NCBI RefSeq assembly: GCF_003854935.1
Contig: NZ_CP033969.1
Span: 3,286,001-3,350,000 of the forward strand
Length of the DNA stretch: 64,000 bases
Origin: Cupriavidus pauculus
Lineage (GTDB): Bacteria; Pseudomonadota; Gammaproteobacteria; Burkholderiales; Burkholderiaceae
Reading direction: 5' to 3'
Below the pieces are notes generated by a model that saw only the letters and a list, made by a program, of their open reading frames with translations, had not been told where the DNA came from and did not search any database. The first letter of the stretch is position 1. Each line of letters begins with the position of its first letter. A program made the translations under genes and the position numbers. Below, in pieces: positions 25,304 to 60,146 of the stretch.

Positions 25304-26170
25304 TCAGCCTTCCTTGTTGCCTTCGGTCTGCCTGCCGGCCAGCAGCATGCGCTTGGCGATGCCGCGCAGGATGTTCACTTCCTCGCGCTCCAGCCCGGCC
25401 CGGGCAAACATGCGCCGCAGGCGCGGCATCAGCTTGCGGGGGTTGTCGGGGTCCAGGAAGCCGATGGCCACCAGCCCGGCCTGGAAATGGTCGAACATCG
25501 ATTCGACCTGCTCCGTCGTGGCCGGCTCGCCAGCATAGCCGATATTCGGTGCGCCGTCCGGCACCACGCCGGCCGCCGCGTGGGCGTCCAGCAGCGCCAG
25601 CCGCAGCTCGTAGGCCACCAGCTGCACGGCCTGGGCCAGGTTCAGCGACGCATAGGCCGGATTGGCAGGAATATGGGTCACGGCCGAGCAGCGCAGCACC
25701 GCTTCGTTGGGCAGCCCGTAGCGCTCGTTGCCGAACACCAGGGCGATCTCCGCGCCGTCGTCGGCCGCCAGCAGCGCACTACCCCGGGCCGCGGCGGCGC
25801 GCGGCAGCAGGCGCGGCGGGCCGAATTCGCGCTGGCGGGCCGTCATCGCCACCGTGAAGGCCGTGCCGGCCAGCGCCGCCTCGATGTCGCCGACGATCCG
25901 CGCGCCGGCCAGCACGTCGTCGGCACCGCTGGCCATGGCCACGGCGTCCGGATGGGCCAGCACGCCCGGCTCGCGCGGCGACACCAGCACCAGGCTGCCC
26001 GGCGCGTCGCCAAAGCCCATCGTCTTCATGGCCCGGGCCACGGACCCGACATTGCCCGGGTGGCTGGTTTCCACCAGCACCACGCGCACACGGGAAAAAA
26101 TGCCGGACAAGCCACCGGCGACGGCGTCCGCGGGGGCCTGCCCCGCCTGGGAATTCAATGCGTCAGTCAT
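25304..26170 (-). CDS. trmJ: tRNA (cytidine/uridine-2'-O-)-methyltransferase TrmJ
   Basis: 288 residues. A SPOUT methyltransferase that 2'-O-methylates position 32 of several tRNAs. Signatures: [35 protein letters not shown] and the knot motif [21 protein letters not shown] short helical tail ends in LLAGRQTEG. Divergent from suhB across 236 bp; a TACAAT at 26231-26236 facing suhB is a possible -10. Confidence 0.93.
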
Positions 26171-26406
26171 CTGGGATGCCCTGGCCGCGGCGTTTGCCGT
26201 GCGCGACTCGTATGGCGGGCCGGGTTCCTATACAATGCAGCCTTCCAATTGCGGCGCGGCGCCCGAAGCTCTGGCGACGCCCCTCGTTCTTCGACAATCC
26301 GTTGTGCTGTTCGGCCCTGGCCGGACTGTCCGTGCGCCCCGTCCGCCATGATGATCCTGGCGGCAGGCCGCCATCCGGGCAGGTCCGCGGGCCCCTGGAG
26401 AGATTC

Positions 26407-27240
26407 ATGCATCCGATGCTCAATATCGCCGTCAAGGCGGCCCGCAAGGCGGGATCCATCATCAACCGCGCGTCGATCGACGTCGATCTGGTCCGCGTCT
26501 CGCGCAAGCAGCACAACGATTTCGTGACCGAAGTCGACCGCGCCGCCGAGGCCGCGATCATCGAGGTCATCCGCACCGCCTACCCCGAGCACGCCATTCT
26601 AGCGGAAGAGTCCGGCCAGTCCTGGGCCGAGGGCGAGGAACAGGCCGAATTCACCTGGGTGATCGATCCGCTGGACGGCACCACCAACTTCATCCACGGC
26701 TTTCCGCAATACGCGGTCTCGATCGGCCTGCTGCACAAGGGCGCGCCGTCCCAGGCCGTGGTCTACGATCCCACCCGCGACGAACTGTTCACGGCCAGCA
26801 AGGGTGCCGGCGCGTTCCTGAACAACCGCCGCATCCGCGTGACCCGCCGCGACAAGCTGGCCGACTGCCTGATCGGCACCGGCTTCCCGTTCCGCGACCT
26901 CGAAGGCGTCGAGGAATACCTGGAAATGTTCGCGCTGATGACGCGCAGCTGCGCCGGCCTGCGCCGCCCGGGCGCCGCCGCGCTGGACCTGGCCTACGTG
27001 GCCTGCGGCCGCCTGGACGGCTTCTTCGAGCGCGGCCTGAAGCCGTGGGACATGGCCGCGGGCATGCTGCTGATCACCGAGGCCGGCGGCCTGGTGGGCA
27101 ACTACGCCGGCGAATCGCGCCAGATGGAACAGGGCGAGGTGCTGGCCGGCAACCCCAAGGCGTTCGCCCAGATGGTGCGCCTGCTGTCGCCATACTCGCT
27201 GGACAACGCCAAGCCCGCGCTGAAGCCCATCGAGGGCTGA
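26407..27240 (+). CDS. suhB: Inositol-1-monophosphatase family protein SuhB
   Basis: 277 residues from the ATG at 26407, preceded by GGAGAG. A magnesium-dependent phosphatase fold; in enterobacteria SuhB also joins the rRNA antitermination complex. Metal-site motifs: [23 protein letters not shown] and [15 protein letters not shown]. The length is normal. Upstream of mutS on the same strand. Confidence 0.94.
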
Positions 27241-27515: not shown

Positions 27516-27704
27516 ATGTCCGCAGAAGCCTTTTCCCAACCAGCCGAAACCACGCGCCCCGATGCCGTCCCGGACGCCGCGCCCGTGTCCGCCGAGACCC
27601 TGGCCGCCGCGGAAGGCAAGCCCCCGCGCAAGGGCCGCGCCGACAAGGCGGAGCCGGCCGACAAGGCTGACAAGCAGACGCCGATGATGCAGCAATACCT
27701 GTAG
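27516..27704 (+). pseudogene. mutS: mutS 5' fragment, cut off by prophage insertion
   Basis: Sixty-two codons from ATG (27516, after GAGAGGAATGC) encode an Ala/Lys-rich N-terminal extension and then TPMMQQYL, after which a TAG occurs. MutS proteins of beta-proteobacteria continue this motif as RIKAEHP and the DNA-reading FYRMGDFYELF segment. Sequence immediately to the right is unrelated and begins a long phage gene set. The mismatch-repair sensor gene is therefore disrupted near its 5' end. The remainder is expected beyond the right edge at the far prophage junction. Confidence 0.85.
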
Positions 27705-27712
27705 CGCGCCAA
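27690..27712. other. Left prophage junction (probable attL) within mutS
   Basis: Host mutS coding sequence (CAGCAATACCTG) changes to phage sequence near 27700-27704. The exact core cannot be defined without the right junction. No integrase is seen at this end, so it is presumably at the other end of the prophage. Confidence 0.6.
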
Positions 27713-27816
27713 TGCTAGGTCCCAGCAGCGACCTACGCTAAAAGCTACGCCTCTTTTGCGCCGCTTCCGGCGCGTCTTACTCCCCTCCCGAATTTAGAAC
27801 TGCTTCGTCGTCAACC

Positions 27817-38628: not shown

Positions 38629-40020
38629 TTAGAACTTGTAGCCGACGACGTTGAGGCCCAACGTGCCTCCGACTGCGTCGTTCTTGTAAAGGACCGACTG
38701 CGGCGTGACCAGCCGCACATCGTTCCATGCTCCTCCCAGAATCTGAGTGGCGACTGGGCTGAGGGCGCGACGCAGGCCGACCTCGTTCGTGGGATCCGTC
38801 GCGATCACGTACACCCCATTGCTCGCACCGTTTGTTGACATCCCAAAAGTGAAGCTGACATACCGAGCGTTTGGCGGCACGGTGGACGAAATGCTCACCG
38901 CCGTGTAAGTGGTTGCAGCCCCCGACGCCAGCACACTCACCACGCCGGTTTCCACGGAGCGATCAAGCTGAGCGCCGACCGCAAACTGACCGCTCCCGTT
39001 CGTTCGGCGCACCGAGACTAACGCCGATGCAGAGTACCCGGCAGGCATATTGCCGCCGCCATACACCTCAGGTGCGGCCGCGGACGTTGCGTTGACGCCA
39101 AGGAGGGCGCGCGCTCCCGTCGCCGGGTTATAGATCGCGTACACCGCGACCCACCCGTTGGCGGGCGCGGCACCGGCATCCATACCACCTGCGCCGGTGG
39201 CGCCGAGGTTGATTACCTGACTGAAGTTGGCAAGCTTGTAAGTGTTGCCACCCAGGGCGCTTTCCACCACGATCTCATCGGCCGACAGGGTCGCGGTCGC
39301 CGACGCCGTCGTGACGGACATGACAAGGTTCCGGACCATCCCGACCACTGCCGGCGCCTGCTTGACCTGCGTCAGGAGCGGCGCCGACAAGAACGGAGCG
39401 GCGCTGTAGGCGACGATGTTGCCCGCCGTGATGGTCGTTTGCCCATTTGCTACCGTCACCACCCAGAGGCCGGAGCAGCCAGCATCAGGCGCCGGCGTGG
39501 TCTGCGAGCCCGTAGTCGCAGCAACCCCCGCTTTCGCGTTAATGCTGATTACGCCTTTGCGCGCGGTAGCCTGTTGTGCCCCGGAATTGTTGGGCCCCGA
39601 CCATGCCTGCTGTGGGTTGCTGGCGTTGTAGTACGGCAGCGTCACCAGACCGGTGTCAGAGTCTTGGTAAGCGGCCTGCACTAGATAATTGATGCTCTGC
39701 CCCGCTGTCGCCGGCGGCGTGCAGGTCAGGAGGACATCGTCCAACGAGATGCCCTGCTTCAGGATGTTGTGGGTCGTGTCGGCGGCCAGAGACGAGTAGT
39801 CGGTCGCATCGAGCGCCGCGAGGCTGTACATCTCGCCCGGACCCACTTTCACCTGGAGGGACGCCGGGGACGTCGGGGCACATGCCAAGCCGTTTGCGAC
39901 AGTGCCCGTTCCGAGCATGGCCGCGGCCAACTTTGCGATTGCGATCATCGCAAAGCGGTTACTGTTGAGCAGGTCGGTTTCGAGGGGAATCTGACCCGGA
40001 TATACAATCTGGCGGTCCAT
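38629..40020 (-). CDS. Phage tail fibre protein
   Basis: 463 residues. The N-terminus (MDRQIVYPGQIPLETDLL) is the attachment segment typical of fibres in baseplate-linked gene sets. A long Ala/Thr/Ser-rich beta region follows, with a C-terminal domain (YVSFTFGMSTNGASNGVY) that may bind the receptor. Last structural gene of the late operon. Confidence 0.75.
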   Translation of the reverse strand: MDRQIVYPGQIPLETDLLNSNRFAMIAIAKLAAAMLGTGTVANGLACAPTSPASLQVKVGPGEMYSLAALDATDYSSLAADTTHNILKQGISLDDVLLTCTPPATAGQSINYLVQAAYQDSDTGLVTLPYYNASNPQQAWSGPNNSGAQQATARKGVISINAKAGVAATTGSQTTPAPDAGCSGLWVVTVANGQTTITAGNIVAYSAAPFLSAPLLTQVKQAPAVVGMVRNLVMSVTTASATATLSADEIVVESALGGNTYKLANFSQVINLGATGAGGMDAGAAPANGWVAVYAIYNPATGARALLGVNATSAAAPEVYGGGNMPAGYSASALVSVRRTNGSGQFAVGAQLDRSVETGVVSVLASGAATTYTAVSISSTVPPNARYVSFTFGMSTNGASNGVYVIATDPTNEVGLRRALSPVATQILGGAWNDVRLVTPQSVLYKNDAVGGTLGLNVVGYKF

Positions 40021-41183: not shown

Positions 41184-42323
41184 TTAGAGCACCGTAACGG
41201 ACGTCCATTTGATCACCTGCTTGGCGTTTGCCGTCAGGTCCGATGCGCCCCCGTTGAGCGTCACCGCCGTGACGTTCGTCACCCCCGGAGACGCATCGTA
41301 GGCCACCTGTGCCAGCCGGCTGTATGGCAGTGTCATGACCTGCGTTGTTGGATCCCGGACCAAGGAATTGATATAGGACTTGAGAGCGTCCGAAACGACC
41401 GCTCTAGTTGCGGCCGGGTCATAACCGGCGGCAACCGTCACGGTCATCGAAACTGACGCCCCAACCAGTACCGGTGCAAAGACTCCGAAGCTACTGCATA
41501 GCGGACGAACTGCATCAATTGCGTTGGCGACCGTCGAAAGGAATGTGCCGGTCGGGGCGCCGGTCCCGTCATCGACCACAGCATAGAAGTAGCCCATTTG
41601 TACCGCGCCGGCGTAGGTCTGGTTCTCCACCAGCGAGACCGTGACGCCTTGCTGGAGCGACGTGACGGCATACCGCACGGCGTCTTTCGTTGCCTTGGAC
41701 AGGCTCCGCACATATGCAACAAAACGCGTCCGCAGCGCAGGATCAGATTCGGCGTCGGCGCCGTTGGAAAAGTCCGCCGCGTTGGTGACTGTGTCGATTC
41801 CAGCAATAGCGCCCGAGATGACGGACACTGCCCCCGCAATGGCATTCCCCGCCGACCCCGCAGACACGGCGACGACCGGCACGGTCACACTGGCAACCCC
41901 AGCCGCCGCCACATACCCGCCGAGGGTAGCGTTGTACGCTGGGCTCGACGCGTCAGCCACAACGGAGTACTGCTGACTTCCGTCCCCGGTTTGCACAGTG
42001 GCGCCCACCGGCACCACTGCCTGTTGTGCCGGCGTGAATCGGCTGAACGTGACCTGCCCCGTTGCAAACGTGGCGGGAAGTCGCGTCACACCGAAATCGC
42101 CGACCCACGAGTCGAGATCAGAACCGCTCGACGTCGCGGCGCGCGTGATGGCTAGTACCTGAAGAATCAGGCTCTGAAGCCAGACAGTGCCAGATGCGCT
42201 TGTCTCGACGATGGCTCGAAAGACAGATCCGACCGTCAGGTCAACAAGGACCCTGGCATAGCCCTGGACAGCGGTGACCTGCTCGCGCACGAGCGTCGTG
42301 AAGTCTTTTGTGGAAATGGCCAT
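41184..42323 (-). CDS. Baseplate J-like protein
   Basis: 379 residues. Baseplate_J features: RVLVDLTVGSVFRAIVE near the start, GSDLDSWVGDFGVTRLPA, and the hallmark ADAESDPALRTRFVAYVRSL. Forms the wedge of the contractile-tail baseplate. Its stop adjoins the next gene's start. Confidence 0.9.
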   Translation of the reverse strand: MAISTKDFTTLVREQVTAVQGYARVLVDLTVGSVFRAIVETSASGTVWLQSLILQVLAITRAATSSGSDLDSWVGDFGVTRLPATFATGQVTFSRFTPAQQAVVPVGATVQTGDGSQQYSVVADASSPAYNATLGGYVAAAGVASVTVPVVAVSAGSAGNAIAGAVSVISGAIAGIDTVTNAADFSNGADAESDPALRTRFVAYVRSLSKATKDAVRYAVTSLQQGVTVSLVENQTYAGAVQMGYFYAVVDDGTGAPTGTFLSTVANAIDAVRPLCSSFGVFAPVLVGASVSMTVTVAAGYDPAATRAVVSDALKSYINSLVRDPTTQVMTLPYSRLAQVAYDASPGVTNVTAVTLNGGASDLTANAKQVIKWTSVTVL

Positions 42324-49157: not shown

Positions 49158-50678
49158 TTACGGCTTGACGATCACAGTTGTCTGGCCGCCCTGCAGGTTC
49201 ACGAGGAAGTTCCGGACCACGGCCAGATAGCGGACTTGCACATTGCCCTGCATCCAGCCGGCACGGATGCGATCGTCCGGGTTGTTCGTCTTGTCCAGCT
49301 TGACGACGTAGTCGTCGATCATGGCCGGTTGGACGTTCTTCATGGCCGACATGAACTGATCAAGGCCAGCGAAAGCCGCGGCGCGCGTCTCGTCCTCGTC
49401 GTCGAATCCCTGCAGCTCACCGACGAACTTTCCGCCCCACTGGTCGATGCTGAAGGCGATGTAGTTGGTCAGCCGCGTGTAGCTGTCTTCGCGCAAGGCG
49501 GCGTCGCTGCTGGAATTCAGACCAAGCACGAAACTGAAGTACTTGCCGCCCGGCGACGGGTTCGTCAGCACGTCGATGCCGGCCTGCACCAGTTGGAGCA
49601 GGTCGCCCTTCTGGTACGGCTGGCTGTTGTAGGTGCGCTGCGTCGCAACGATGCCCTGCAACTGCTTGTTCAGCGTGCTCTGTTGCGGCGACTGGTTGAC
49701 CATCTTGCCGAGCGCGAATGCTTGCGGCGAGATCAGGCGGAGCTGGTTAATGGTGGTGTCGTTGACATACACCCAGTCGCCGTGGATGACCTTGGCGCCA
49801 TAGCTGTCGATGCCGGCGGATGCCTTCGTCGCAATTGCATTCGTGATCGAGTCGCCGGCCGGCCCGACCAACAGCATGTACGCCCCTTCGGACAGCCCGA
49901 ACGGGACCTGAGTGGACCAGGTTGTCGAGTCGTCGCAGTCGGCCAGTGCGATGACGCTGGCACCGGTGTTGCGAAGGGCATACATCCCCTTGCGAGGTGC
50001 TGTGTCCACGCCGACCAGGACCGAGCCGGTAATGGTCGTCGCCCCATCGGTGCCCCCCGCCAGCGTGATCGTCGCCGGCAACGCGGGCGCCGCCGTGCCT
50101 GCACCGGCAGTCGCCACACACATGTTCGACGGACCGCGAAACTGGCTATTACCCAGGTTCACCGCCTTGACGATGTTGTCGCGCAGGGTGGCGCCAGTGC
50201 CGGGGATGTTGTCGTAGATCTCGGGCTGGAATCCGGCCATCGTGATGGTCAGCTTGGTCGTGTTCGCGGCGGTGCCGGCGGCCAGCGTCCCCGAGATGCT
50301 GTTCCCCAGCGTCCCCGTGTACTTCGACGTCAGCGTCACGAAGTTCGTGCCGAAGGTCTGCGTGGCTGCTACGTCGGTGCCGTCGGTGACGCGCACCAAC
50401 TGATAGGCGCCCACATCCCCCTGGAGCCGAGCCCAGTTGAGGACTGTCATCAGGTCGTACTTGCGCGCCTGCATCGGGCCAAAAATGGCAGCGCCGCCGC
50501 CATAGTCCGAGACCATCACGGGCACCCCGACCGGGCCCCAAACGGCCGTGCCGACGATGCCGCCAATATTGCTCGGCACGCCATTGATCGGCGCCGGGCC
50601 CGGAGGCTGGATGGCGACGATCATGCCGGGCACTTGCTGCGCGGTCAGGTTCACCTGCCCTGCTTGAACAACGGTCAT
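49158..50678 (-). CDS. Contractile tail sheath protein
   Basis: 506 residues. Sheath signatures: PPGPAPINGVPSNIGGIVGTA-type start, LGKMVNQSPQQSTLN, GGKYFSFVLGLNSSSD and the C-terminal LNNYIAFSIDQWGGKFVGELQ-like stretch. Identifies the phage as a myovirus. Confidence 0.92.
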   Translation of the reverse strand: MTVVQAGQVNLTAQQVPGMIVAIQPPGPAPINGVPSNIGGIVGTAVWGPVGVPVMVSDYGGGAAIFGPMQARKYDLMTVLNWARLQGDVGAYQLVRVTDGTDVAATQTFGTNFVTLTSKYTGTLGNSISGTLAAGTAANTTKLTITMAGFQPEIYDNIPGTGATLRDNIVKAVNLGNSQFRGPSNMCVATAGAGTAAPALPATITLAGGTDGATTITGSVLVGVDTAPRKGMYALRNTGASVIALADCDDSTTWSTQVPFGLSEGAYMLLVGPAGDSITNAIATKASAGIDSYGAKVIHGDWVYVNDTTINQLRLISPQAFALGKMVNQSPQQSTLNKQLQGIVATQRTYNSQPYQKGDLLQLVQAGIDVLTNPSPGGKYFSFVLGLNSSSDAALREDSYTRLTNYIAFSIDQWGGKFVGELQGFDDEDETRAAAFAGLDQFMSAMKNVQPAMIDDYVVKLDKTNNPDDRIRAGWMQGNVQVRYLAVVRNFLVNLQGGQTTVIVKP

Positions 50679-55822: not shown

Positions 55823-57259
55823 TTAGGCTGCGGCCGGGTTAGCTGGTTTGTTAGGGCTGGTGGCGGGAGCCGGCAGCTTCGGCGCGTTGGCCTTGATTCG
55901 GGTTTTCTCTTCGTCCCACTGCCGCTCTGGGCCGATGACCCCGCGGCGCTGCGTCTCTTCGAACAGCGTCTCATCCGAGAGCGTTCCGTCGACATTCATC
56001 TCACGCAGCAGCTCGAGCGAGGCCTCGGACAGTGACGTCACGCCAAAGTCCTTGAACAACTGGACGTGACCGCCTGTCGATTCTCCGACCCATTCGGCCA
56101 TCAGTTGAAGCGCCGCGTCGAGCGCATCCTCTTGATCCTCGGCCATCCGCTGGAGCGCGCACATGGCGGGCTCGTTGTCAGCCTCGGTCTGCTTGATCGT
56201 CGTGTTGCCCGGCTTGATCACCAGCAACTCGGCGCCGACCTGTCGCATCATGTGCTCCAGATCCTGCAACGACAGCCGTCCTGCTTCGATTGCCTTGCCG
56301 GTGTGCTCGACGTACTTCAGGTCGCCGTCAGCGTCGTCGGTAGTAACCGCGGCTGAGCCGCCGACCACAAGCTTTACATTGCCTGCATCATCGACGTCCA
56401 GCTTCTTGCCGAACAGAATCGGCACGCGCGCGACGTGTAGGATGGTCTGCTGGTCGCTCTTCGACTGCCAGTGCTCGACATTCATGTGTGCAAGCTCGAG
56501 CAGCGGCGGAACGCCGATCATGAAGTCCTTGCGCTTGCCGTAGAACGGCACGAAAGCAATCTTCTGCAGCGTCGTCACGCCTTCGTCGTACTTTGCCCAG
56601 TCTTCTTTGTTGCCGTCGACCTTCTTCTTGCGCCAGATCTCCCAGCGGCCAGGCTCCAGCACCCGGACTTGCTCGATTTCCTTCTCGTGGAACGGCCCGT
56701 CGTCCTCTACGGCCGTCTCAAGCAGGCGCAGTTGCGTCAGCGTACGAACCCCGTTGATGCGCTTGTCTTTCCACCCAAGGATGGCGTCGACGGTGATCGG
56801 CACGAAGTACGGCCGCGCGCCGATCTTCGCTTCCGCAGCTTGCGTCTTCACCTCGGCGGTGTTGACCGTCGGGAAATCGACCAGGATGCCAACAAGGCCG
56901 GCGGCCAGCGCATCCGTGAACGTGGCGGCGGCAAATGCGTGCAGGTTCCGTCCTTCGAGGTCGATGTCCTCGCACCACGCCTTGATCTTGGCCGGCATGT
57001 CGTCGCCAAGCGTGACGGGCTTGGAGAACGGCTTTGCAGCCAGAACCTCGACGGTACGGGCGAATGCTGGGAACAGCGTCGCCGTCTTCAGGCGGTTCTC
57101 GTACGACTTCGCTTCCTCGTTCGGCCATTGCGGCAGATACTCCTTGCCGGCGGCGCGCATGGCAGACGTTCCGCCAAGCAGCGCCTGGATCAGGGCCCAG
57201 TTCGCGGCCATCTTTTCGGCCGCCTTCGAGCGAGTGCGGACGTTTGGCTGCTGATCCAT
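55823..57259 (-). CDS. Portal protein (DUF4055)
   Basis: 478 residues. KEYLPQWPNEEAKSYENRLKTA and FARTVEVLAAKPFSKPVTL match DUF4055 portals (cited in parts). The dodecameric ring is the DNA entry and exit vertex. Between terminase and scaffold, the normal order. Confidence 0.88.
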   Translation of the reverse strand: MDQQPNVRTRSKAAEKMAANWALIQALLGGTSAMRAAGKEYLPQWPNEEAKSYENRLKTATLFPAFARTVEVLAAKPFSKPVTLGDDMPAKIKAWCEDIDLEGRNLHAFAAATFTDALAAGLVGILVDFPTVNTAEVKTQAAEAKIGARPYFVPITVDAILGWKDKRINGVRTLTQLRLLETAVEDDGPFHEKEIEQVRVLEPGRWEIWRKKKVDGNKEDWAKYDEGVTTLQKIAFVPFYGKRKDFMIGVPPLLELAHMNVEHWQSKSDQQTILHVARVPILFGKKLDVDDAGNVKLVVGGSAAVTTDDADGDLKYVEHTGKAIEAGRLSLQDLEHMMRQVGAELLVIKPGNTTIKQTEADNEPAMCALQRMAEDQEDALDAALQLMAEWVGESTGGHVQLFKDFGVTSLSEASLELLREMNVDGTLSDETLFEETQRRGVIGPERQWDEEKTRIKANAPKLPAPATSPNKPANPAAA

Positions 57260-57268
57260 GTGGTTCGC

Positions 57269-58585
57269 TTACATAACGAGGTTGGTGACGCGCGTCTGAC
57301 GCTTCACGATCGGGAACATCTTCACCAGCGGGTATCCGCCGGCGTCGTTGACGTGGTCGTGCCCGGTCGTCTTGTCGGGTTCGCCGTTCTTGTCGTACGG
57401 CTGCTGCTCCAGCGCCTCGGTGTAGACCGGGCAGAGCCTGGTGTTCACCTTCAGCCGGCGCGCGCCCTGGTCGTTCAGGATCAGCGCGTTCACTGAGTTC
57501 AAACGGTCCTTCACGGCCGGGTTCGTCGAATTCACCTCGATCTGGAAGCCGGCGGCCTTCAAGATGGAGAGGTCCGACTCCGACGCGTTTTTGCTGCTCG
57601 TGTTCTGGCCGCTGGCGTCGGGGTAGATCTTGACGTGATGCCCCTTGTCCTTGAACCGCTCTTTGAGCAGTTTGGCCATGGCCGGGGTGTCACGCACCTC
57701 GGTCAGTTCCGTCACCGCGCGCGGCTCACCGTCCCGGATCACGTATCCGACGGCCGCCATCTTAAGCACGTTGAAGTCCATGCCGACGTGCAATGGCTCG
57801 CCCTCTTGCAGAACGTCGTCCGTATGGTTCAGCGCGCGGTCGAAATCTGGGTACACGGACCCAGATGTCAGGTTGACGAACTTGCCACGCAGGTACGCGT
57901 TGATTAGCTGCGGCGGGTAGCTCTCCCGCAGCGACGGGATATAGTCGTCCGGCAGGTTCAGCGCGTTGTCATACGTGCTGGCCTGGATCAGCCCGTACAG
58001 TTCGCGCAGCTTCGGCTTCTCGCTCAACTGCTTCACGAACTGCTGGTAGACGAACTTGAACCCTTCCGGGGTCGTCGTCACGTCCACGCCGTTCTTCAGG
58101 CCGGGGACCTTGTAGCGCATCCGCGCGATGATCTTGCGCCAGGCCATTTCGGCCTTGAGCAGCGGCATCACGTCCAGTTCGTCGATCAGCGCGTGGCCGA
58201 TCTTGAAACCGACAATCTTTGCCGGGTGCTCCATGGAGCGGCAGATCACCGTACCGCGGCACTTGCGCCCTTCGAAGGCGTGCACCTCGTGGTTCGCCTG
58301 GTTGATCACCACCCGCAGCCCCATGGTGAAGGCCACCTCTTCCATCGTCTCGTAGAAGATGTCGCGGATGTGCGGGTAGGTCGGCGCGAAGTAGCCCTGA
58401 TTGATGCCGGGCCAGTTCCAGAAGTGCTCGGCGATGGCCGTGCAGCCTACCCACGTCTTGCCAGAGCCGAACCCCGCCACGTAGGCGCGGAACTTGTGCG
58501 GCATCTGCAGGAACTGCGCTTGCGGGATGTTCAGCGTGGCTTCGATGCCATCGGACAGCGTCTCAATCATCCCCATCAGGGTCAT
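57269..58585 (-). CDS. Terminase large subunit
   Basis: 438 residues. Walker A-like GFGSGKTWVG near 35, Walker B HALIDELDVM, and the nuclease domain with VGMDFNVLKM and HVKIYPDASGQN. It packages DNA by ATP hydrolysis and cuts headful ends. Starts at 58585, 58576 or 58570 are all possible; the gene overlaps the small subunit by 23 bp. Confidence 0.93.
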   Translation of the reverse strand: MTLMGMIETLSDGIEATLNIPQAQFLQMPHKFRAYVAGFGSGKTWVGCTAIAEHFWNWPGINQGYFAPTYPHIRDIFYETMEEVAFTMGLRVVINQANHEVHAFEGRKCRGTVICRSMEHPAKIVGFKIGHALIDELDVMPLLKAEMAWRKIIARMRYKVPGLKNGVDVTTTPEGFKFVYQQFVKQLSEKPKLRELYGLIQASTYDNALNLPDDYIPSLRESYPPQLINAYLRGKFVNLTSGSVYPDFDRALNHTDDVLQEGEPLHVGMDFNVLKMAAVGYVIRDGEPRAVTELTEVRDTPAMAKLLKERFKDKGHHVKIYPDASGQNTSSKNASESDLSILKAAGFQIEVNSTNPAVKDRLNSVNALILNDQGARRLKVNTRLCPVYTEALEQQPYDKNGEPDKTTGHDHVNDAGGYPLVKMFPIVKRQTRVTNLVM

Positions 58586-59066: not shown

Positions 59067-59720
59067 CTATGCGGCACGTAACAAACATGTGCCGCATGCC
59101 CTAGCGACGTTCAAGCGAGCCACCTCAGGCGCCGCGTTGCTGGCATCGATCAGCCGCGCCAGAGCCCCATCGGAATGGCCAACGCCGTATCTTCGTACCA
59201 CCCCAATAAACTCCTCCACGTCGTGCCCCCGCATGGCCAGCTTGGGCAAACCTTCCTTCGTGAAGCGCGGCGACCCGAAGTCGTCGAGGTCGTGACCGAT
59301 GTGGTAGAGCTCATGCTCTATGAGCGCACAGAATTCAGCGTCCGTGCATGTGGCGCAATATGAGGCGTCGAGCGTGATCAACCACCCAGGCACACGGCCG
59401 AACCACTCCGATAGCTGCTGCTCTTGGCGCCCGCGCTGCCATCGGCCCACCCGGAAGACGAGTTCCTCCGTCTGTCCGATGATCTTGCGCATCTTGCTCT
59501 TGTTGGGCTCCCCAGCCCAGAGATACCCAACGTCCGCATGGGCCAGGTGATCGTGGTCCGGGTTGTACAGCGGCGCACCGTCCCGGAGGATGTTGGCGTG
59601 CACCCAGTCGTTCAGCGCAGGCACCGGCACGTAAAGCGGGCCCCATCGTGTCCCATCCCACTCCCCCATGTTGGCGGGGGGCATCGGCCTGCCAGCCTTT
59701 TGGGTCTTCGTCTTGGCCAT
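59067..59720 (-). CDS. Putative phage metallopeptidase (HExxH)
   Basis: 217 residues. FCALIEHELYHIGHD holds the zinc motif HELYH (His136, His140) with a further His143, matching the putative phage metallopeptidase family. It adjoins the terminase genes. Substrate unknown. Confidence 0.75.
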   Translation of the reverse strand: MAKTKTQKAGRPMPPANMGEWDGTRWGPLYVPVPALNDWVHANILRDGAPLYNPDHDHLAHADVGYLWAGEPNKSKMRKIIGQTEELVFRVGRWQRGRQEQQLSEWFGRVPGWLITLDASYCATCTDAEFCALIEHELYHIGHDLDDFGSPRFTKEGLPKLAMRGHDVEEFIGVVRRYGVGHSDGALARLIDASNAAPEVARLNVARACGTCLLRAA

Positions 59721-60070: not shown

Positions 60071-60146
60071 TGGTTGCGGAAGGTGGAATCGAACCACCGA
60101 CCTACGGGTTATGAGCCCGTCGCTACTACCGCTGAGCTATTCCGCA
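60071..60146 (-). tRNA. Phage tRNA with CAU anticodon (tRNA-Met or Ile2)
   Basis: 76 nt with encoded CCA. Acceptor TGCGGAA/TTCCGCA, T arm GGTGG-TTCGATT-CCACC, anticodon stem ACGGG/CCCGT with loop CTCATAA. The D stem has three pairs plus a C-T mismatch. GGG/CCC next to the anticodon loop and a weak first pair (U-A) are initiator-like features; the D arm is elongator-like. Charging identity cannot be settled by eye. Confidence 0.9.

Follow-up and report, generated by a model that had tools for sequence, protein, structure and literature searches.

The window, that is, the whole stretch of 64,000 nucleotides of Cupriavidus pauculus DNA that we analysed (G000:C2:3286001-3350000), contains the left end of a prophage inserted within the 5′ end of mutS. 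Reading-frame analysis gave a frame of 62 codons, MSAEAFSQ...KQTPMMQQYL, on the forward strand, with its ATG at position 27516 of the window and coding up to position 27701. The TAG that closes it (27702-27704, forward strand) consists of the first bases of the prophage. The last 18 bp of the coding part (ATGATGCAGCAATACCTG, 27684-27701, forward strand) form the core of the left junction (attL), and the body of mutS opens with the identical 18 bp at G000:C2:3370740-3370757, which lie 57,056 bp to the right of the first copy. The second copy corresponds to L002:4241-4258, where L002 denotes C2:3366500-3376500. The 20-base degenerate core motif, with up to two mismatches, gave three matches genome-wide: the two junctions and one site elsewhere with a mismatch. 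The original prediction had described the frame ending in TPMMQQYL and TAG with phage genes after it, which is present at 27516-27704, and an insertion of a prophage within the 5′ end of mutS, which is borne out by the two junctions and the phage genes between them. The repeated core that it expected exists as well, and its position is 27684-27701 (18 bp) rather than 27690-27712.

The host gene to the left of the insertion (26158-27240, forward strand) belongs to the inositol monophosphatase family (Pfam PF00459, 2.8e-73). We examined the best 30 mutS loci of the same genus, three of which, including that of the window, hold the present integrase; a gene of the inositol monophosphatase family lies upstream of mutS in nine of the 30 (1.5 kb flank). 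The MutS sequence rejoined in silico aligned from residue 1 in four genomes of the same genus (G080, G153, G337, and G352), whereas within the genome of the window its alignment began only at residue 16. On frame and comparison with native MutS starts, the 62 codons at 27516-27701 fit a displaced native start of the host mutS.

The prophage is 57,056 bp long, measured from start to start of the core copies. Its left 36.3 kb occupy positions 27702-64000, and it continues beyond the window to G000:C2:3370739. The following genes were found on the reverse strand: a tail fibre protein (38629-40020; phrog_11518, 5.1e-42), a baseplate wedge protein (41184-42323; phrog_6, 1.2e-54), the sheath of a contractile tail (49158-50678; phrog_23, 5.4e-32), the portal protein (55823-57259; phrog_145, 2.3e-129), the large subunit of terminase (57269-58585; phrog_2, 7.4e-57), and a tRNA-Met (cat) at 60071-60146. 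A protein of a PHROG labelled transposase is encoded at 59067-59720, and the window also encodes a protein with a weaker match to scaffold proteins, a DNA ligase, and a protein with a weak spanin-like match. A protein of 645 residues among the structural genes gave no match in the profile search. To the right of the window, the prophage matches a RecE-like exonuclease, a DNA methyltransferase, a Holliday junction resolvase, and a nucleoside deoxyribosyltransferase, and a protein of the AlpA family adjoins the integrase. By gene content (portal, large terminase, sheath, baseplate, and integrase), the element is a tailed phage with a contractile tail.

The integrase gene (L002:2704-3996, reverse strand) encodes the Pfam Phage_integrase domain and an arm-binding domain, and lies 115 bp from mutS in divergent orientation. 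The nearest integrases in the phage collection were those of Acidovorax phage Aval (59% identical) and Burkholderia phage KS9 (56% identical); unlike the present integrase, that of KS9 groups among integrases that do not adjoin mutS. An integrase with 100% identity is carried by the viral contig L182 (56,204 bases). The 115-bp gap contains four exact copies of GCGTAGGTTTT, three direct and one inverted, and with one mismatch allowed, four were found in the locus versus 0.06 expected. These copies probably represent arm sites of the integrase. At the left end, a weak candidate arm site (GCGTAGCTTTT, one mismatch) is located at 27740-27750 on the reverse strand; such a match occurred at least once in 44 of 100 shuffles of the window, which is no better than chance window-wide. 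A block, GATGATACGC, was conserved in all five aligned gaps between integrase and mutS, and at a guess it might belong to the integrase promoter.

Right junction and chimeric mutS

The frame at L002:4112-6841 (forward strand), which lies outside the window, encodes a chimeric MutS. It reads MTSVDVAGEIEPKDVETAPTKGLRAKTEADQAVKKTAKETHTPMMQQYLRIKADHP... and is free of stops over 909 residues, and the domains MutS_I to MutS_V were all above the cut-off in the Pfam domain search. The phage-borne start region comprises 40 codons (the ATG and 39 more), differs from the host start, and runs through HTPMMQQYL in frame into the mutS body. The core lies in the same codon phase at both junctions, and the TP codons that precede it differ between them synonymously only (ACGCCG versus ACCCCA). 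A candidate ribosome site, AAGG, was read by eye six bases 5′ of the ATG of the chimera. The chimera matches solved MutS chains, the best of which we take to be those of E. coli MutS, from residue 39 on, and the swapped part precedes that stretch.

A genome-wide search with MutS_I and MutS_V for an intact mutS elsewhere found none. A second MutS was ruled out, since the sole MutS_I match and the sole MutS_V match both fall within the chimeric frame; MutL_C likewise had one match in the genome. The original prediction had proposed that the lysogen lacks intact MutS. This proposal is unsupported, because the right junction rebuilds mutS in frame through a phage-supplied start, with domains I to V present. 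The restored, unbroken frame is contrary to the reading of mutS loss, which was rejected. The remark that the phage encodes no MutS substitute in view overlooks the replacement for the 5′ end of mutS that the phage carries outside the window. The remainder of mutS and the exact core copy, which had been anticipated past the right end, were both found there.

When a script joined the flanks in silico, mutS was open over 922 residues; the circle released by excision would carry a start region of 49 codons closed by TAG. No frameshift scar is predicted, because the two cores are identical, share one codon phase, and leave an open frame when rejoined; a scar on excision was rejected at the sequence level on these grounds. 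A scan for sigma-70 promoters had no hit between the integrase gene and mutS and likewise none at the native mutS start; it is therefore not decisive on a phage promoter. The terminator scan gave zero hits in the same two regions.

Integrase-mutS junctions in related genomes

The family search detected the integrase in 35 of 399 genomes (E up to 1e-60), and the phylum-wide search in 6 of 398. Among the 30 loci listed from the family search, mutS lies beside the integrase in the present genome and in 13 others, and the scan of species genomes gave 79 integrase loci. From these we assembled a set of 53 loci that had both mutS and a near-complete integrase start, which was reduced to 44 distinct junctions after removal of repeats. 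An in-frame ATG, GTG, or TTG was present upstream in all 44. In the 15 codons preceding the P of the motif (660 codons in each frame), two stops occurred in the coding frame versus 21 and 25 in the other frames, and these counts rule out an open frame by chance. Both in-frame stops belong to a single locus, L043, and lie upstream of its start.

With viral contigs included, 64 distinct junctions were available, 30 of them with at least 880 codons of flank. The mutS frame was full length in 30 of these 30; in the other 34 it was open to the end of the sequence, except for two that stop at codons 842 and 873, a natural length for the protein. We calculated pN/pS for the phage-borne codons in three groups, where the pairs are non-independent and the HT of the motif is among the codons compared. 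The value was 0.18 in a group of five (10 pairs; 13, 23, and 66 differences at codon positions 1, 2, and 3, respectively), 0.47 in the group of four that contains the present phage (6 pairs; 63, 84, and 111), and 0.77 in a third group of four (6 pairs; 17, 29, and 23), with no clear constraint in the last. The first two groups speak for selection on the protein and the third does not.

The left junction was searched for with the core motif (up to two mismatches) in 14 genomes, including the present one. A second site, which is a possible left junction, was found in nine, and eight of these, the present genome included, have a displaced fragment whose motif shares the phase of an upstream ATG. 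The remaining candidate (G016) is doubtful, being on another contig and having no ATG. At two mismatches, no left junction was found in five of the 14. The stranded fragment of G332 is of the native type of other genomes of the same genus (MAMGLQKKTDPEQAQAD...). In L162 (G396), the stranded host fragment has VMQQYL (GTGATG) in place of MMQQYL, as if it were drifting while unused. Three genomes hold a second core copy with its own short in-frame start near the left junction, at distances of 1,092 bp in G142 (L145, L159), 728 bp in G294 (L149, L163), and 2,186 bp in G373 (L147, L174). These stacked copies look as if they were remnants of an earlier element at mutS.

Explanations of the arrangement and known systems

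Based on these sequences, we propose that a tailed temperate phage has integrated through its tyrosine integrase at the 18-bp core in codons 57-62 of mutS (the MMQQYL of TPMMQQYL). The sequence shows the host's own mutS start stranded and ending at TAG, and the phage start region beside the divergent integrase running through the core into the host mutS body to give the unbroken chimera of 909 codons. Excision within the core is predicted to be scarless and to rejoin the host gene as an open mutS of 922 residues. The phage segment may also provide a working promoter and ribosome site, the chimeric MutS would presumably repair mismatches, and selection on lysogens may hold the phage-borne start in frame. 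The phage very probably restarts mutS, giving MutS a different N-terminal tail and different regulation instead of removing it.

The arrangement is already known from other bacteria (Tuanyok 2008; Chu 2017), and a Cupriavidus case is added here; no title found in our literature search named a Cupriavidus prophage in mutS. Chu 2017 (PMC5296598) describes elements that are inserted at HTPMMQQ and number in the hundreds across Beta- and Gammaproteobacteria; some of these elements are prophages (B. multivorans CF2). The mutS element of V. splendidus 12B01 provides a promoter and a start in that account. The present element resembles these in its insertion within HTPMMQQ (cores at 27684-27701 and L002:4241-4258), in giving mutS an in-frame start (the 909-residue chimera), in the adjoining integrase gene (115 bp), and in the stranded host-type start on the far side. 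Prophages specific to mutS were also reported by Tuanyok 2008 (PMC2612704). They are GI8c of B. pseudomallei MSHR305, whose insertion has a repeat of 15 bp (ACGCCGATGATGCAG), and Bt-GI4, found in B. thailandensis. Their 15-bp site is found at the left junction of the present prophage (27678-27692); unlike in the present case, the portion of that account used here mentions no restored frame, and the genus differs. In regards to other genes, SXT/R391 elements at prfC (PMC2791158) and the islands at dusA (PMC8409611) share this design, with other genes and other elements; a promoter was demonstrated by experiment for dusA (PMC8409611), and the phage promoter of the present case is putative. The Pseudomonas prophages of PMC2647930 lie between mutS and cinA, a site different from the present one.

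Inactivation of mutS by the prophage, with a mutator lysogen in which excision restores repair, is very improbable. The host start is indeed severed from the mutS body, and the SpyCI islands at streptococcal mutL, whose target, as in the present case, is the 5′ end of a gene for mismatch repair, are described as silencing the repair operon when integrated (PMC4129442). In the present case, unlike with SpyCI, mutS is restored at the level of the reading frame: the right junction yields an unbroken mutS, as do all 30 relatives with enough flank. We give marginally less credence still to the converse switch, in which repair works with the element in place and imprecise excision scars mutS to give a hypermutator. 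That course is reported for 12B01, whose excision leaves a 2-bp deletion in mutS (Chu 2017, PMC5296598), and the motif and the kind of element are the same; however, the present 18-bp cores are identical and in phase, the rejoined frame is open so that excision is predicted to be scarless, and the same source reports scarless excision in three other species that were tested there.

A restart of mutS by the phage is compatible with a further account, which is no alternative to its anatomy. The chimeric MutS may work and be made in a different amount or at a different time, and the mutation rate would then shift modestly with integration and excision. We consider this possible, though with rather less than even confidence. 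Both the upstream region and the N-terminus are exchanged, expression of dusA fell after integration of an island by a like exchange (PMC8409611), and the possibility was raised for mutS in Chu 2017 (PMC5296598); on the other side, the sigma-70 scan, with no promoter at either start, is uninformative. Altered expression of the chimera might still produce a mutator state. Since mutS can be rebuilt at the far junction, a prophage within it need not make its host a mutator, and the tempting misreading that such a prophage alone proves a mutator is corrected here. The counts across relatives (frames kept, two of three groups constrained, and cores in phase) point to selection that, in most cases, keeps mismatch repair intact in lysogens of this kind.

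Phage-borne mutS starts and integrase site choice

We examined 80 viral contigs, the best of 189 relatives, of which 35 were readable, extending 150 bases or more past the start of the integrase. In 17 of the 35, mutS follows directly on the phage-borne start. Seven others carry TPMMQQ or a near match followed by sequence other than mutS, with a stop within 30 codons, and fit phages that carry a mutS start without the gene behind it. The motif is absent from the remaining 11.

A possible left-behind phage start was found in the same-genus genome G317 (L143). The integrase is absent from the flank of L143, and G317 is not among the 35 family genomes with a match. The genes upstream of mutS in L143, which we read as PPK2 and UspA, recur in nine of the 30 same-genus loci. 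The MutS start of L143 (MPDKGMQEKIELNQEVAKPLAEKH, core near position 1575) is short and was chosen after inspection; it scored 67 against the phage-borne start of L187, up to 51 against other phage starts, and up to 33 against 24 host starts. In the shuffle control, each of the eight listed host starts was likewise matched or exceeded by only 0-2 of 200 shuffles. Only the score gap (67 versus at most 33) carries weight, because this control does not separate the classes. The start of L143 is a probable left-behind phage start. A start with MAMGLQKK, common to ten of the 30 same-genus loci, shows a faint similarity of its own in the alignment, and the host-start class may therefore be mixed. 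A broader reading, toward which we lean slightly less than away, is that phages carry a spare first segment of mutS that is meaningful only after integration and is kept in frame across phages, and that decay of a prophage can leave the segment as a permanent host start. If so, phages may be the source of some of the diversity among the N-termini of MutS in these bacteria.

A quick tree of the integrases had 91 rows, and on it adjacency to mutS, taken as a label, required 6 changes versus a shuffled mean of 29. Counts from this tree are not genome counts: 16 short rows had been left out, more than one locus id can stand for a single genome, and there are long branches that meet. Near-identical integrases adjoin mutS in three families, in Burkholderia (L070), Pigmentiphaga (L092), and Pseudothauera (L071), which suggests recent transfer of the integrase between families. 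Some related integrases adjoin other genes, including ones that, by their translations, we read as encoding GTP cyclohydrolase II and a DeoR-like regulator. Those in L024 and L026 are divergent from the gene for the DeoR-like regulator, which is possibly another insertion at the 5′ end of a gene.
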